A stretch of 64,000 bases of DNA, from positions 1 through 64,000 of the forward strand of contig FN648414.1 in NCBI GenBank assembly GCA_000310025.1, in the 5' to 3' direction. The notes below the pieces were generated by a model, which worked only from the letters and a program-made list of their open reading frames with translations, searched no databases and was not told the DNA's origin. Shown in pieces: positions 4,536 to 64,000 of this stretch. A program made the translations under genes and the position numbers. Source of the DNA: Ectocarpus siliculosus (taxonomy: Eukaryota; Sar; Phaeophyceae; Ectocarpales; Ectocarpaceae). The first letter of the stretch is position 1, and each line of letters starts with the position of its first letter.

Positions 4536-5436
4536 GCATCACGCTGGTCAATCGTTCGTCTCACCTTGAGCACTTGTTCGTAGGCCTGGACAAGTCGCCC
4601 GCCCGTCCCTGACGAAAAGGAAGAAAAAAAAAGAAGGAACAAAAAATGCGAAGAAAAACAAACATGGTGATGATCTCTAACAAGGGTGTAGAGAGGAAAA
4701 GCTGTGTTGTACCAGGAGTTTGGGTACACAGCATGTTTTCTACACGAAGATAAGCCATGACCGACAGCAGAACACGTTGCATATGCAATACATATAGGGT
4801 CAGCATGTGCACTGGAACAGAAAAACAAAAACGGGGACGGGAGCACGCGCATTCGCACCCAACCAAATCTGTTGGCCCGACCGGTGTGAAATAATTTCCT
4901 TCCGATCCATAAGATCGTGGTACTTGCGCAAGGCGGAGGGGGGTGCAACACCGTGAAACACCAAAAGAGCCACGGTACAAGCTACGGAGCGAGCCCGCGA
5001 ATCGAAATCGTCTTGAAGCTGTTGTTTGCTCAAGACGTGTCGCGAAACCGAAACACAAAGCGCGTGGCCTGGTTACCGGTTACCACGAAGGAAAATACGG
5101 TTTTGTTCCATCTCCGACCAACCACTTTTATCGGAACACCTCACAAAAGAAAGAACCGAGACACAGGAGAGCGACCCATGACTTCTCACCGAGTGGGTTG
5201 GTTAGGTTCAGGTCTTCCTGGAAGGCGTTGCTGAGGACGTGTCTCGTGAGAGGCTGGACGTGGCTGAGGCACTGCACGGCCGAGTTGAGGAAGCACGTGT
5301 TTCCCAGGTTGTCCAGGCCCGCCTTTCCTCTAGGCTCCCACGGGTATCCACAGACGAACAAACAACAAACAAGAGCACTTAACATTGTTTTCATCGTGGA
5401 CGTTTTTTTTCTAGATGACAGCGGCGCTCTTGTTTG

Positions 5437-5480
<44 letters not shown>

Positions 5481-8400
5481 CTTTCTCTGCCTCTCTCTCT
5501 CGTATTCTCCTGCAAAACAAAACAATACAAAAAAATACAACGTGACAACAAACTTGAACACCCCACACAAAGGGTTCACAAGTTGCTCAGTTCCGCTTTC
5601 ATCCGTCTAGACACCAACAACAGCGGGGTGTAAGAGAGCGCCCAAACCCGCTTTTCGGTGTGAGAATGAGAACCGTTTCTTCGTGAGCTTCCTACATACA
5701 GCTCAGACCTGGCACTACGGTTGCACACAACACCAAAACGGGAGCCTCGCGAAAAAAACGTGGGCGTTTGATGCTCAAGACTTGTCAAAAACGAGCGTCC
5801 TTTGGAAGGTATGGGCCACGAAATAGCTATTCTGTCCGACGGCGGATGGTAACGCCTTCACAAAAAACGCAAAGACCGTCCGGTACGAAGATCTTGCGAG
5901 CGACGGTATATATGCCGGAGGAAAAAAAAATAAAAACAAACCTTTGACAAAGAGCGGAGCAGTTGTTGTCGCGCGCAGCAACTACTTCCATCGGCACGTA
6001 GGCAAGTACGTCATTGGTCTCTCGGACACGCTCTCCATCGAACAACAACAAGCAGACCGCATGTTCTTCCACATCATAACCGTCATCTGATTCGAACACG
6101 ATTCGATCCACTATACCCCTTCACCTCTTGGCCAGCGACAGCCCGGCTCCCGAACCCTTCCCGCCGCAGAACTTCTTGTGAAACCTCCAGTGGGCCTTCT
6201 GGCAGGCCGGGGAGCAGTAAGACACCCTGTGCTGCGTCTGCATCGGGGACGAGTAAACATTTGTTGATGGACAAGTTAGTTGATTGGTTGATCGATCGAA
6301 TGGTGTACCGTGTCAAGGATTATTGCTTGACTGCTGTGCCAACGTGGGTTTGGGATATGTTTTCTGCATCGCTAGGGTTGTCAGGGTTGTGTAGGTGCTG
6401 CGTAGAGGCAATAGACGATTATTTAGTGCCAAGACAACCGCCATCACCACAAGCACCACAACAACAACATATTTTCTTCAATAGTGTCGTTGCAGCCCAG
6501 CAATTGCCACACCCCGTGTCTGTGCGGTCTTTTGCGCTGATTTCTGCTACCTCTCTCGTCTACAGGCCCTTCGGACAGCAGGAATCGCCGACGAAAAAAG
6601 AGATTTTGGACGGAATAAGGAATAAGCCACCCAAGCACCTACTTCTGTTGCCCCAACCAAGCACTAAGCGAACGGTGGACATAGCTAAAACAAAGTGCAC
6701 AACCAAGAGAAACGGCCAAACCACCAAGAGAGAATGAGGAAAGAAGAGAGAGACCGGGGGGGGAGACAGAGAGAGAGAGGCAAGAGCGAGAGAGAGACAG
6801 AGAGAGGAGAGAGAGGCAAGAGATAGACGAGGGGTGGGGAGAGAAAGAAAGAGAGAGAGAGAGAGACGTAGAAGGCAAAAAGAGGCCGAAAACTGTTCGG
6901 GAAGTTCAATCCAACTGATGAGATTAGTGCGAGACAACAGTCATCCTAAACCGGAAGAGACGTTTCCAGTTAACGCGAGCCCTGCCTCACCTTGGAGCAA
7001 GAGGTGCACTTCTTGTTGGAGGGGGCTCCGCACGCCGCGCAGGGGTACCACGCATCTTCATTCTTCTTTGTCTTCTTGTCTGCACTACCGTCCCCCTTCC
7101 CCTCCCCTCTGCCGCCCGCCCGGTCCACCTGCACGCCACCACCGGTACTGCTGCCGTCGTCGCCGCCGTCCTGTGCCCCTTCTGCTACCGCTGCTGGTGG
7201 TGCCGGTGGTGCTTCTTCCGTCGGTGCTGGCGGAGGCTCCGTCGATTCTCCCCCTACCCCATTCCCTACCCCCTTTCCGTCTACGGAACCCCCGGTGTCT
7301 TCTTTGCTATCAGCTGCTGCTGCTGCTGCTGCTGCTGCCACAAGAGGGCTCTTTTCGACGGGACTACCGTTGGCGATAGGACCGTTGGAGATAGGATCGC
7401 CGTTGGCCGTAGGTTTGTCGTTGGCCAAATCCTCGTTGGAAGGGGCGTCGTTATCACCAACAACGCTACTGCTGCACACAGTGGCTGATCTTAGGACCGG
7501 ATCTAGTCGTGAAAACTCCTGGAAGTGAGTCGGAATTCAACAGGGGAGGACATGGAAAGGGGCAAGGGGAGCGTGCGCGGGGGGGGGGTGAGATGGAAAA
7601 ACACGAAACACAACGACAGTAACGCTTCTTCGATCAATGATGACCATGTCTTTGTAGGGGCCCTCGTCCAGAATGCAAGTGGGCGAGAGAGATCTTCGGG
7701 GTAACGGGGATGGGATTGGCGGGATACCCAGATACCGCTAATCTTTGGATGACTACTGTAAGCATCAAACAACGCGTGACTGCCGACGGCAATCCAAGTA
7801 CACAGCAGTGGGCGCATCACACCCAACAACAAGCGCCAACAATACCAACACCGTATGAAAGCCAACCATCAGCACTACTCCCAAAACAAAACAAATACTA
7901 CGGTAAACTATCACGCCCACAGCTCGAACTCAACGGTGTCCATGTAGTATTATACTACAAACACCCCCCGACGAAGCGGGTTCGAGCGTCGTACGTATCC
8001 CCGCGCTATGCCAGAATAAAGAAACGCCGTCGCTAATCTCACCGGGAAGAGCTGAGGCTCGAACACGACACGCCCGGAGTCGCTATCTCGGATCGGCACC
8101 AGCGCTCTTGGCAACGCGGGCCCCCCACCATACCTGCATCGCACCGCATTGCGTTGTTGGGTCGGATTGAGAAACCGTACGCGGGGGTGGAGCAGCCGGG
8201 AGGATCCACTTGCAACTTGTTTGAGTTCTATGTATATGGCCACTGACTTGACAGCTCGACTCTTACGAGAATGAGTCATTGTGTAGGGAAATAGTTACAA
8301 GGGGGTGAGACTGTTTTATTCGCTTGCACAAGTCGTTTGGCCATGGACAATGCACCACACACGACACGGGGCCACGTCGATCCTAGTCCCATTGTAATAG

Positions 8401-57080: not shown

Positions 57081-60000
57081 ATGGAGAGCAATGACCTCCC
57101 TAATTTGAAAACGCACCGCAAGAGGCTGAAGAAAGACATCCAAGCATGGATTACGGCCTTTGAAGAGCGGGAAGGCCGTCCTCCCGAAGCAAAGTGAGCA
57201 TAGAGACAAAGCGAACGCGCGGTAGAGCAATGTCGTGGCAACAGCCTAAAACAACACCCGCTGTGTATGCGATGTTGTACAGCAGCAGTAAACGATGTAC
57301 TTGTTCTTCTTTATTTTTCTCCCTTCATTGGACTCTGTCGTCTGCCCCTCTGGCCCCCATACTCCACTTCTACTAGCTAGACGCCCCAACCGGGGCCAAA
57401 TAGGAGCGGGGGGTTGGACCCCCTCCTGCGGTTCCTGCCTGTAATATTTTTATCGCGAGAAGGGTACAGCAATCCCTTCCCTCGCGACTTATGAAGTCGA
57501 TCTAGTTTACAAACAACGAGCTGTGCAGCGCGTCGCTTCCAACTTGCGCCAGGATTTATAGAGTGAGAAAAAGAACTCACTTTGCCGGGACTCAAACCCA
57601 TGACCTGGCCCTTGGTAGGCTGCGAGGGTACCCACTAGACCACCGGGGCGACCGGTGTACTGTACTCCTCAGAAGTCGATCACGTACCATGTACACCAGG
57701 TACGTTGACAACTAACAGTTCTGTTAGTACAAGCAGTGACACAGCCGTATTAAAGAACTCCAATCCAACCACTGCATGTAGTCCGACATGATGCCATGAT
57801 ATGCAAACAACCCTACGTCTACCACTGTTCAGCCGTCTACAATACAGTAGGCTAGACGTACCTCACCAAATGCACCCTACAATTAAGCAACCTTGACAAA
57901 ACTGCCAAGCTTGCTGCACCACCCACCGTCAACTGCAATGCAGGGACAAAGAGGAAATCCGACCATTGTACCGCGAGTACAGGGAGCTAGAGGCGAAGAT
58001 TGCATCCATCTCAGCGGCAAGTCCTGGCGATGGTGCTGCGACTGAAGGCGCGGGAACTACTCGTGTAGAACCTCAAGTACAACCACTGCCGGATGGAGCT
58101 GGTGATGCGGCGGGAGTAGGTGGTGACAACATGGATGTGGCGACAATCAAGATTGAGAGAGACGCCAAGAAACGAGACATCAAGCAGTGGATTCAGGATT
58201 TCGAGGAGCGAGAGGGGCACACGCCTACAACCAAGTGAGTATTGTAGTGGCTGTCAATTGGGAGAAGCTGGTTGGGACTCCCAGCACATCAGGACGTAAC
58301 TTGGAAACACCGCTTGTTGTACTACTCCGGAAATAGTCGTGGTTCATGCGGTTCCCCTTGCCGTTGTCGACCGACAGAGAAAAGGCCCCAATCAAGAACC
58401 TCTACATCGACTTCAAGGAACTCGAGCGGCGTCTTGCGGCCTGTCCAAGTATTGGCGGTGGCGACGAAGATGCAGCTGATAATGCCTTGCGCCCTGAAAT
58501 GGCGGCCGGTGGTGATGTCCCAGCTGATGTGGAGAGTGTCAAGGCTGAAAAGAAGAAAGTCAAACGCGAGATCCAGACCTGGCTAGACGAGTTTGAGGCC
58601 CGGGAGGGGCGCGCAGCTCTCCAAGAGTGAGTATGAACATCGGTGTTTATTTATCTGGAGCCTTGCAAGTGCTTTTGGTAGACGTATGGATAAAACATAA
58701 ATATAACTCTATCGAGTATTTCTTCAAATTACTGTTTACGTACTCAACGGCTGTTCTAATAAGGCGTGCTTAACGCAGATATTACTTACCAGCACGTAAT
58801 CAACGGCTGTTCAAATAAGGCGTGCTGAAGGAAGATGATACTGTAGCACCCTTTCCATCGCGAGGACCAATGCGACAGTGTGACCACAAGAAAAGGTTGT
58901 ACGAGAGGAAATTCGAGGTACAGCGCTACAGTTCTTCCACTGACCCAACAGCCTTTTATCGTGTGCTCAAGCCCGTCGCATCGCATCCTTCCTTCTCCTG
59001 TGTTTGACCTATCGGGGTTTCCCTTGATCAATCGCGCAGAGATAAGGCGGAGATCCGGCCTCTATACAAGCGCCACAAGGAGCTCGAGCGTAAGCTGGCC
59101 AGTCTCACGGCGACATCATCACCACCACCGCCATCTACCGCTGCCGCTGCATCGTCTTCGTCCTTGGCGCGACCGCAGGACACCACCAACGGTGACCTCG
59201 ATCCCACGGCCATGCTCCTGAGCCCCACATCGTCGGCGGGAGAGATACCGGTGACCGTACCACCGTACGATGGAGACAGCAGAACAGACGAAGATGCGAA
59301 ACAAGATGGCGGCAAGCAAGATGGGGGCAACGGTAGCGGTCAGTCAGGGGTGGAGGAGGAGAAGGGCTCCTCATGCGCGGTAACGGCGGAGGGGGGAGAA
59401 GTCCCTTTGGTCGGAGATGGAGATAAAGGTATCGACGCCGGCAAAAACGAGGGTACCGGATACGTTGACGGGAAAGAAGATAGCCTTGCCCAAACGCCAC
59501 CCGAGGGTGGCGGGGCAGACGAGGCTTCCTCGCCAAACATGGAAGCATTCGGTGAAATCACACCTCCTCCTATTATCACTGACCGCTCCTCTTCTTCAGG
59601 TGCCGATACCAGCACACTGTTGACTTCGGGGGGCGGCGAAGAAAGGGAAAAGGGCGGGGGGAGCGGCGGCGACAATGGCGAGAGCAACAGCAAGCCGACA
59701 ACTGCGCAGGAAGCTAGGGTGAGGCGTATGCGTGCGCGATTCCTCAACATGAAGAATCTTATCGAAGGCGATGAGTCGGCTCTTCCCTCTTCTCCAAAGG
59801 GGGGAGAGGTACACGAGGAGGAAACTGGTGGTACGCTCACGCCCTCCCCCAAAGGTAAGGATACCTTGGTTTGGTCACGGAAACATTGAGGAAACTATGC
59901 ACGTTCTCAGCCGCGGCAGTAGCCGAGCCGAGATGATACAGCAGCAGTCCCTCCGTCGTACTATGAAAGAACTCAACAATTATTTTTCAGAAGTTGGTCC

Positions 60001-63000
60001 GCTTGGAAATACAGTTGTATTTCTCCGAATCAACCCCACCCCACGGATGATAGTGTTCACCGTATGCACTTCACCACCACGGTAAGTCTGCGGTTGGTTT
60101 ACCAAGGAAACGACAAGTTTTTCTCTATTGCGCCCCAAATTGACGCCGTGTCCGTTCTTCAGTGTCTGTAATAACATCACATGTCCGCCGGTGCTTGCCT
60201 GACGGGAATTACTCAAAAAACCTACGATATAGGTGCAAAGAACCGATGGGCGCTTCTGGGAGACGCGGTCGCGCCGAACCGTCTGTCGTCGCGCTCTCCC
60301 GCCCGACCAGCTTTGGCCCAAGCCACCGGCAATACAGACAGCGACAAGGAAAGAGACAAGACCGCCACCACCGTAACGACCTTACAGGCGCAAGGAAACC
60401 TCGCAGATGGTGTCACAAGCGAACAAACCTCGGACGCCGTGTTCGCGCCGCTTGCGGACGACGGGGTGTCGGGAGCGTGGGTTTCCGGCCAGTTGTCGGA
60501 CCTCCTGCTCTCTGACGCTCCGCCGCCCCCGCCGCCTGCCCCGCCGGGGCTCGAGAGCCTCGAGGCCGAAGCCTCGCGCCTGCGTGGTGCGGTTGATCCC
60601 CCGCCGCCGGGGTACGTGGCGGAGTACCAGAGCGGCGTGCGCGGGGCAGAGCTGGTCGTGGCCAGCGTGGGGGTCGAGGAGGTCCGGGCGCGCGAGCGAG
60701 CGCTGGAGCTTGAGCGGCTTGCCAACGCTCGCGAGGAAACAAACATCTACCGCGCGCGGGAGGCGAACTTGCTGTACCGGGAAGACCGCGCGCGGAGGCG
60801 GGTGCTGGCGCTCAAGGAGGAGATCGAGAGCAAGGTCAACATCGAGAAGCAGGCGGTCATCGAGATCTCGATCGCGGGGGAGCGGGCCCTAGCCCCGGCG
60901 TTCACGAGAGCACGTCGGGGGCTGGAGAGAGCCATCCGGGCGCAGGCCGGCAGGGTGAGGGAGGTGTTCGGGGAACTCCAGCCGGGGGAGACCCCGGGAG
61001 GGAGGAAGTTTCGGGTGGACTGGAAGGGGGTGCCGCAGCCGGTGGAGATCCGGCTGCACTGCATCCGTGCCGTGCGGGACAGGCTGCCTCGTGGCTCGTA
61101 CGTCATGCTCTCCAGCATGGCGGAGCGGCTGGGCGGCCGGGTAATGCGCTGGACGAAAGGGGCCGACTTCGACGACTTCGACGAGGAGGACAGCATCGAC
61201 ACCGACGGAGGCGACACCCGGCCGGCGGCCACCTTGCCCGTGAAGCACGGCGGCCGGTACTTCGACCGCGAGCTCAGGCTCGACCAGAACGTGTACCAGC
61301 TGTGCCCCAGCAAGTCGGAGGTTCGTCCCGGGAACGTCATGGTATTCGAGCTGTTCCGTCTGGCCGGGAGTGGCGGTGGCGGCGGTGGCGGAGGCGGCGC
61401 GCGATGCGGCAGCAGCCGGCACAAGGGCGGGGAGCTGGACGAAGACACCGCGGTCGGCTGGTGCGTGCTGCCGCTGGCGGACTCGCGGCTCCGAATTGTC
61501 CGCGGCAGCTTCCGCATCCCCTTGCTCCGCGGCGAACCTAACCCGAACATCGACCTGCACGAGGGGCTGGAGAAGCTCATCGCCGCTGACCTCGAAGCAT
61601 GGCTCGGGAACCTGTACCTGGACATTCGCCACTTGCCGCGGGTGGCGAGGCTGGACGGGCCGGGGCTCGAAGGCGGTAGCGCCATCGGCGGAGAGGGGTA
61701 CGACATCGAGTACGACCACGTGAGGAAAGTGGCACGGCTCGGGAGGGGGCTTTGGGGGAAGCTGATCCCGTCGGCAGGCCGCTGGGAGCGCTGGAAAGCA
61801 AGAAAGGAAACGGGTATGGATGATGACAACGACAGTCATGGAGATGGTAAAGGTGACCACGACGGCGACAACGACGGCGACAACGACGGCGACAACGACA
61901 TCGAAACTGGCGGTGGCGACGATTCTGTTGGACTCCTGGCAGGTTCCGAAGCTGGAGAGGCCAAGTCGTTGTTGCCTTTGATCACAGAACTCGGAGAGAA
62001 TACCTCAGGGGGAACAGCAGGGGGGGGGGGCGACACTGAAGACTTAGTGCCGAAGCCCGTGAGCAACGAGGCGGAGGGGATGGGCGCATCGACAGACCAC
62101 GAAGAAGAGAAAGCCAGTACAAAGGGGGAGGAGATCTCCCCGGGTGATTCCAAAAAGATCAAGAAGGTCCCATGGTTTGGGACGAAAAAAGACAAGAAAA
62201 AATGGATCGACGACGCGCTTCCTCCACCGGACACAGTCAAGCTCAAGAAGGCTGTCGAAAAACAAGTAAGCTACACGCCGAGGTTTTCGTCTTACCCCCG
62301 TCCTGTTCGGTTAGAACTGACCTGTGCATAGTATCTACGCCGATCTTCAGCGCGTTATAGCCGTTTTCCTCGCATCCAGTGGGAGCACGCCTGCAGCAAG
62401 CACTTGAGTCGGAACTACATTCAGGAGAGTGTTTTCAAGGTATTGGTACGCAAGTGGGTGGCCGTCGCGTGCTCGTGGTCTCCGTCCGTGTGGTACAGAC
62501 GTGTTTTCAACAAAGTACGGCGTGTAACTCGACCGTTTGTTCCAAATGCTTTCTTCGCCTTACCTTTTGTTCACCATGACGCGTTTCTCAGTCTACCAAA
62601 GAAGCCGCATCAGCGTTGACAACTCTCTCAGTTCCCATCATCAGGACGGACGTGGAGCTATTCAGATCTACGTAATTGTAGCACCTTTACTTCAGGATGA
62701 TTTCACGCCGCCCTCTGCGCCACAAATCCCGCCGATCAGAACCAACCCAAATCAGAGAAACGCCATGAGAACTTGTTCGTGTTGTCCCTTGCCGCCCCCT
62801 CGCGGTCAACACACAGTCCAACAAAAGGAGAGGCGACGGTGGCATAGAGGCCCCCCCGCCCCAGGGCGGCTGGGCCTCCCATCTCGAGGGTGAAGAAGAC
62901 GTGGACGACGGCAACGACAACGAGGAGCACGTCAAGATCGAAGAGACTGTCGACGAGGAGTGCCTGTCCGACGACGACATGCCCCGCGGGAGCACGTTCC

Positions 63001-64000
63001 GTTTCACCCCCTCCGGGGAGGCGGCCCTCGCCGTCGACAAGGCCGCCGGCTCCGGAGCGCACACCGGGGGACACGCGAAAGGCGTGGGGCTCAGGAGGAG
63101 GGGGGAGGGTGCGAGGTGGGACAGCGCGGCCCTCGGGCTGGGGCACAGGGGCCTGCCGAAGCGCTACAGCGGGGGAAACAACGGCGCGAGAGACTCACAC
63201 ATGTGGACCCCGCTGACGAACCCCGCGGAGATGGAGTTCTATCGGTTCGCGGTTGCCTCCGATCCCGGTAAGAATACCTGGCGATTGTGTTTTGGTTCTT
63301 ATTACAGCTGGCAAGGCAACAGCAACACTGGTCTCTTCCTCGAAAGCACTGCGTTCTTCCCCAAACGAAGGTACATAGTAAGAACGACCCCGTTAGGTCG
63401 GGTCCACGGATTGAACCCTGGAGAAGAAGCCTCCCAGGCGCCCTGGCATCCATTTGCCGTAGATCGGGGAGTAGGCCAGACTCCCTCGTCCCCGCGAGTA
63501 TCACGTGCAAAACCTGCTTCATTGAATGGACGGCCCCGAGCCATAACAGGATTCCGACCCTTTCGTCTCTCAGATTATGAACCGCATGGTGTGCGTAGTT
63601 TCCAACGAATTAGCGCGAGGAAGACCGCGCGGCATAATATAATCGGGCATGCAGTTATAGATCCGTTTCACACGAACAGTCAAGCCCCTATAGCTTCAGA
63701 CGACCACGATCTTGATCGAGAGTTTCAATGCCTCCCCCTCGCCCCCGACCCCTTTCCTTTTCCTCTATCCCATCTATTGCTTTTCCCCACGATTGGAACG
63801 ACTCATGCAAACCATGACGCCAGGTACGGACGCGCCGGCCACTCCAGCACATATCATCGCCCACAAGCTGCGCTATATCCAACAGGAGGTCCTGCTAGAC
63901 CTCCACCCCCGTGGGTGGCGTGTGGTGGAATACTGGCTGGCCGTCATGGTGTTCGTCGGAGCGCTCTGGCTGCGTGTCTACATCCACGCGCTCGGGCAGT
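57081..64000 (+). CDS. FAM13-like repeat, coiled-coil, C2-like membrane protein, 3' end missing
   Basis: Exons in consistent phase: 57081-57193, 57944-58234, 58378-58626, 59040-59854, about 60407-62265, 62332-62439, 62592-62671, 62828-63267, 63824 to the window end, about 1,377 residues so far. Three repeats of the FAM13A/B C-terminal type follow the pattern K.DIQAWITAFEEREGRPP then EEIRPLYREYRELEAKI (residues about 13-60, 104-160, 189-245). Then comes an acidic, Gly/Ser-rich linker, a Pro-rich patch, and a coiled coil (about 580-650, EETNIYRAREANLLYREDRA). A beta-rich C2-like region follows (about 690-915, with VEIRLHCIRAVRDRL, VMVFELF, GWCVLPLADS and RIPLLRGEP). A second acidic linker has (GDND)n repeats, and a membrane helix (WLAVMVFVGALWLRVYI) begins near 1,350. 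ATG 57,081 is the first in frame. An alternative joins 59,854 to an exon at 59,989-60,079. The protein is not one I can name. Its role is unknown; a C2-like region before a helix suggests membrane contact. Confidence 0.68.
57375..57655 (-). mobile_element. tRNA-derived SINE in the first FAM13-repeat intron
   Basis: On the minus strand, starting near 57,650, TGGTCTAGTGGGTA matches a polymerase III A box. About 40 bases later GGTTTGAGTCCC matches a B box with one change. The flanks pair only partly, so it is not a working tRNA. The sequence down to about 57,375 would be the SINE body. It lies in the intron between exons 57081-57193 and 57944-58234, antisense to the gene. Confidence 0.6.

Follow-up and report, generated by a model that had tools for sequence, protein, structure and literature searches.

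Two described groups of proteins come closest to the locus reported here. The N-terminal motif of Sld2 and RecQL4, a replication-initiation motif, is represented by the Pfam family Drc1-Sld2 (PF11719) and by the PDB entry 2kmu (RecQL4 N-terminus). It reportedly interacts with DNA, going by the title of one paper. FAM13A has an N-terminal RhoGAP domain and C-terminal coiled coils according to passages in two articles (PMC11376246, PMC13245938), and a passage in the second of these, a review, describes it as not a classical transmembrane protein (PMC13245938). The locus considered here lies in the first 64 kb (64,000 nucleotides, hereafter the window) of a 248,281-base contig (C62; FN648414.1) of the brown alga Ectocarpus siliculosus. 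A 10-exon gene model on the plus strand, from 57081 to 66234, encodes 1759 residues, with three repeats that resemble the RecQL4 motif near the N-terminus and four hydrophobic segments near the C-terminus. Compared with RecQL4, the motif is present here in three copies on a predicted membrane protein, and no helicase domain was listed in Pfam for the full protein. Compared with FAM13A, which is described with a RhoGAP domain and outside the classical transmembrane proteins, the protein has no RhoGAP match in Pfam and contains several hydrophobic segments. We assign a probability of about 0.5 to the reading that this is a single gene for a multi-pass membrane protein carrying three Sld2/RecQL4-type repeats, which would most likely act as a membrane-anchored adaptor.

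Repeats resembling the Sld2/RecQL4 motif

The three repeats occupy residues 11–61, 110–159, and 191–241, and their alignment has 16 invariant columns. Identity to repeat 1 in a larger alignment is 45% for repeat 2 and 49% for repeat 3. Repeat pairs were evaluated with shuffle tests (2000 shuffles, floor P value 0.0005, 28 tests in all), and all three pairs of window repeats are at the floor.

Relatives were searched for in the alga's own genome (189 Mb, 492 contigs), Pfam (matches listed up to E 10), PDB, IMG/VR, and GTDB contigs. Eukaryotic proteins were covered only through Pfam and PDB, and since the other collections searched are not of eukaryotes, an absence of relatives says little. The 245-residue repeat region produced 16 Pfam rows, with Drc1-Sld2 at the top (E 3.9e-6, 27.2 bits, curated cut-off 28 bits) and the next row at E 0.006. 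The score for the full 1759-residue protein is lower (19.1 bits, E 0.0012). Among the single repeats, repeat 1 matched Drc1-Sld2 at E 7.8e-4 and repeat 3 at E 0.13, and repeat 2 had no Pfam row. The best PDB match was 2kmu, both by sequence (E 0.0015, next row 0.063) and by profile (E 0.0024 with 39 profile positions aligned, next row spectrin at E 0.009). In shuffle tests against the 2kmu fragment, repeats 1 and 3 reached the floor (P value 0.0005), and repeat 2 had a P value of 0.0035. The pattern W..aF....Gr.P...D....ir.LY.eY..L is common to the window repeats and PF11719/2kmu. The repeats resemble divergent versions of this known type of N-terminal motif.

An initial annotation of the window had labeled the repeats FAM13A/B-type. 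In the Pfam profile search, the strongest match of the repeats was to Drc1-Sld2/RecQL4; no FAM13 row was listed up to E 10, in a library where the presence of a FAM13 model was not shown. The C-terminal FAM13 motif may be of the same kind as these repeats, and the FAM13-like label may be right.

Each repeat is interrupted by an intron at the same place, after base 2 of the codon that corresponds to K28 in the first aligned unit. Exon 1 (57081..57193; ATG at 57081, donor AAA/GTGAGC, phase 2) encodes the first half of repeat 1. Exon 2 (57944..58234, 291 nt) and exon 3 (58378..58626, 249 nt) have phase 2 at both ends; each encodes the second half of one repeat, a linker, and the opening half of the next (repeats 1 and 2 in exon 2, repeats 2 and 3 in exon 3). 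Exon 4 (59040..59854; donor AAG/GTAAGG, phase 1) completes repeat 3 and continues into an acidic linker. The shared intron codon and the symmetric 2-2 exons, each joining halves of neighboring repeats, fit tandem exon duplication. No copies of the repeats were found as DNA repeats of at least 20 nt, and the duplication is therefore old. The exon structure thus points to an origin of the repeats by old tandem duplication of phase-2 exons. Searches of the alga's own genome returned parts of repeats 2 and 3 with repeat 1 as the query (E 0.004 to 0.012) and the two halves of repeat 1 with repeat 3 as the query (E 0.002 and 0.5), with repeat 2 not listed in the latter search.

Further copies of the repeat in the genome

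The own-genome searches with repeats 1 and 3 also identified the repeat at two further loci, on contigs C10 and C26. The C10 locus (C10:1619168–1619873; L027, about 5007–5690) has one copy, split by an intron at the inter-helix turn and surrounded by open frames that are charged and helix-like. The C26 locus (C26:2702556–2703752; L026, 3960–5153) has two copies at the 3′ end of a series of open frames; the second copy is intact within one exon, which ends in a stop. Joints at this locus can all be phase 0, and the upstream open frames contain long hydrophobic stretches, as judged by eye. This locus may encode another membrane protein, unrelated to the first, that carries the repeats. At C26 the copies follow open frames that have hydrophobic stretches, and the joints are splice-like and in phase; this arrangement was counted in favor of a repeat-bearing membrane protein in the window.

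An open frame on contig C33 (L012, 1351–1860, minus strand) begins MASATSEGYCNHLRGQLKEWERAF and matches Drc1-Sld2 at 25.4 bits, with no intron in the motif. This frame appears to be the alga's own Sld2/RecQ4 N-terminus. Where introns occur in the motif, they cluster at the inter-helix turn; in alignments, the C10 intron lies ~7 nt and that of the first C26 copy ~10 nt after the window's intron. One table places a splice site of human RECQL4 at c.84 (PMC8637615). The inter-helix turn carries no intron in the second C26 copy or in the C33 exon. If 2kmu is numbered as we assume, the RECQL4 splice site is 2 nt before the window's intron. This clustering is suggestive only. A profile of the repeat had no match in IMG/VR.

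Several results count against placing the repeats in the Sld2/RecQL4 group. Besides Drc1-Sld2, Pfam listed 15 further rows for the repeat region (16 in total) at E 0.006 to 8.6; these include GPW_gp25, DUF465, BAG, and Spectrin, and are taken here as noise from charged helical sequence. When the genome was searched with the Drc1-Sld2 profile, the window was not among the matches listed, and the C26 and C10 copies have no Drc1-Sld2 match in Pfam. The weakest of the 28 shuffle pairs were C26a-C33 (P value 0.067), C26a-RecQL4 (0.026), C26b-C33 (0.014), and C10-RecQL4 (0.013). The Pfam cut-off is not a sharp test in this genome, since the C33 exon, likely the alga's own Sld2/RecQ4, also falls below it.

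Gene structure and hydrophobic segments

The sequence was extended by 19 kb past the window edge and inspected up to position 69,000, and exon borders were set by eye from open frames and splice signals. All nine introns of the gene model are GT/AG, and phases are compatible throughout (2, 2, 2, 1, 0, 1, 0, 1, and 0 at the exits of exons 1–9). Exon 5 (60233..62265, phase 1 in and 0 out) lies in an open frame from 60175 to 62331 and has charged, beta-rich, and acidic low-complexity parts. It is followed by exon 6 (62817..63267; GT/AG, phase 0 in and 1 out), which is acidic and of low complexity. Exons 7 (63824..64044, with the window ending at 64000), 8 (64547–64724), 9 (65059–65291), and 10 (65539–66234) reach to a TGA stop at 66232–66234, beyond the window edge.

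The four hydrophobic segments have 19-residue means of 1.91 to 2.25, with peaks at residues 1356–1374, 1421–1439, 1459–1477, and 1523–1541 and a shoulder at 1369–1391. The first, placed by gene model and hydropathy, is in exon 7 at about 63916–63993, and the other three are in exons 8–10. Taking at least two hydrophobic segments of helix length as the mark of a multi-pass protein, hydropathy predicts that this protein is one. The loop that separates segments 3 and 4 contains four Cys within 13 residues. The initial annotation had the hydrophobic segment right but described a single membrane helix; this is the first of four, and its singleness was an artefact of the window end. Its in-phase order of three ~50-residue repeats, acidic linker, charged region, PLLRG region, and hydrophobic segment agrees with our gene model and with composition.

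The linker encoded by exon 4 (residues 246–489) is acidic (43 D+E versus 20 K+R), with abundant Gly, Ser, and Pro, and the repeat region overall is slightly acidic (44 K+R, 50 D+E). A coiled coil had been proposed for the charged region. This gained no support from hydrophobic periodicity at 3.4–3.6 residues (P value 0.28, 2000 shuffles, 104 residues), a measure of periodicity only, taken with no coiled-coil program. The beta-rich region (61009..61647, from FRVDWKG to LPRVA) is C2-like by eye and contains the PLLRG motif at 61519–61533 (residue 919). The C2-like label likewise found no backing: no C2 row was listed in Pfam up to E 10 for the protein, and the charged and C2-like part had nothing credible in PDB by sequence (best E 0.13). 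An AlphaFold2 model of the region, made without an alignment, is valueless (mean pLDDT 31.3, with 226 of 226 residues below 50). C2-domain membrane proteins share with this protein, by eye, a beta-rich region followed by C-terminal hydrophobic segments, and differ from it in the C2 match that is lacking here. The beta-rich region is single copy in its own genome, where five further matches occur only at E 0.004 to 0.9; tblastn of the whole protein in those five loci gave one row, to a different part of the protein. No relatives of the region were found in IMG/VR or GTDB contigs, and none of exon 10 in the collections searched. By sequence, the best PDB match of the membrane part has E 2.

Three repetitive sequences were observed within the gene. 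Intron 1 contains a repeat (57560–57670) that occurs at 39 other places in the genome with 89%–97% identity (40 of 765 candidates were scored, itself included). Its minus strand has stretches that resemble tRNA A and B boxes, and the repeat may be a tRNA-derived short interspersed element (SINE); ARAGORN identified no tRNA gene in the 64-kb window. In intron 3 (58738–58842), a 49-nt unit occurs twice, 56 nt apart and 86% identical. Exon 5 has a 12-nt minisatellite (61848–61910) of GACGGCGACAAC units encoding Gly-Asp-Asn-Asp.

One gene or two

The doubtful joint of the model is intron 4 (59855..60232), between exon 4 and exon 5. Splice-site scores and offsets were determined for this joint, using a matrix built on the gene's own eight other introns, which gives rough values. 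The donor at 59854 scores 7.9, compared with 7.3–10.7 for the gene's other donors, and donors as good number 39 in 83 kb of this strand (~1 per 2.1 kb). In-phase acceptors for exon 5 are available at 60233 (0.7), 60338 (4.0), and 60407 (4.8). An alternative in-frame route passes through a small exon at 59991–60081 (acceptor 2.4, donor 10.2) to 60342 (6.1). The initial annotation started exon 5 at 60407, which is in phase, and a start at 60233 is equally so.

The same stretch could instead divide two head-to-tail genes: one (57081–59889) for a soluble acidic three-repeat protein of ~500 residues and another, beginning either at an ATG at position 60181 or in a small exon upstream of it, for a beta-rich multi-pass membrane protein. 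Much of what counts against a single gene is what such a pair would explain. The acceptor at 60233 scores below every other acceptor of the gene (3.6–12.6), the exon 4 frame stops by itself at 59887–59889, only 12 codons past the donor, and the ATG at 60181 is in the frame of exon 5. GC content at third codon positions (GC3) is 0.52–0.60 in exons 1–4 and 0.75–0.86 in exons 5–10. Codon usage, scored with this gene's later exons as the training set, favors two other frames over the stated one in exons 1–3 (−29.8 and −34.8 versus −50.0) and in 60233–60406 (−3.9 and −5.9 versus −6.0), and the own genome, Pfam, PDB, and the other collections searched yielded no relative of the membrane half against which the architecture could be checked. 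Because other frames outscore the stated one in exons 1–3 and in 60233–60406, the codon-usage test is of no help there. In the linker, the stated frame is best (−35.7 versus −49.3 to −91.8 for the other five frames), and in 60407–60600 it is slightly best (12.1 versus at most 10.7). A pair of genes would nonetheless have to place a strong donor, of a quality met once per 2.1 kb, just ahead of the stop of the first gene, with several in-phase acceptors downstream of it, and would leave only ~290 nt to accommodate both the end of the first gene and the promoter of the second. The GC3 shift occurs ~240 nt inside exon 5, with no change at the joint itself. No second copy of the exon 4/5 joint was found for a substitution test. 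We consider two genes doubtful. The donor, the in-phase acceptors, and the position of the GC3 shift support the earlier suggestion of one gene across 59,854–60,407, which is probable on this evidence though not proven.

Discussion

As the product of a single transcript, the protein would have its long N-terminal part in the cytosol, with the four hydrophobic segments near the C-terminus crossing the membrane. The even number of predicted helices and the four-Cys loop between segments 3 and 4 would fit this orientation. The three repeats, on flexible acidic linkers, may form a multivalent array that binds a partner several-fold, and the helices, perhaps together with the beta-rich region, would fix the resulting complex to the membrane.

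What the array would bind bears on two other explanations. Given the reported interaction of the RecQL4 motif with DNA, the repeats could bind nucleic acid and tether DNA or RNA to a membrane such as the nuclear envelope. This is improbable, as the repeat region is slightly and the linker strongly acidic, and Pfam lists no helicase or other nucleic-acid domain; the acidic surroundings make protein partners likelier than DNA for the window repeats. Also improbable is a true FAM13-family protein that lost its RhoGAP domain and gained a membrane part. A likeness of the repeat to the C-terminal FAM13 motif would suit it, but the gene has no match in Pfam to RhoGAP, the N-terminal domain of the long FAM13 form, the genome's two RhoGAP exon matches are both on contig C3, and the Pfam search described above, in which a FAM13 model may or may not have been represented, returned no FAM13 row. 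A membrane-anchored adaptor with Sld2/RecQL4-type repeats is the reading that we prefer.

To the extent that the searches can show, the fusion of these repeats to a multi-pass membrane protein, if real, would be a new arrangement, and no paper was found in the literature on the joining of these repeats to a membrane protein. A broader and rather unlikely proposal is that the Sld2/RecQL4 motif is part of a wider eukaryotic module. Exons with introns at the inter-helix turn would have been duplicated and shuffled, dispersing the module, and on at least two occasions in this genome it would have been joined to unrelated multi-pass membrane proteins, where it would form a docking array in the cytosol. 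A real fusion would mean that a motif best known from replication initiation (Sld2/RecQL4), which FAM13 may share, has been redeployed in algal membrane proteins. Such a fusion would point to a general partner-binding role of the motif and would provide a system for studying it apart from helicase or RhoGAP domains. It would also clearly illustrate how a repeat can arise through duplication of exons whose borders halve the repeat unit.
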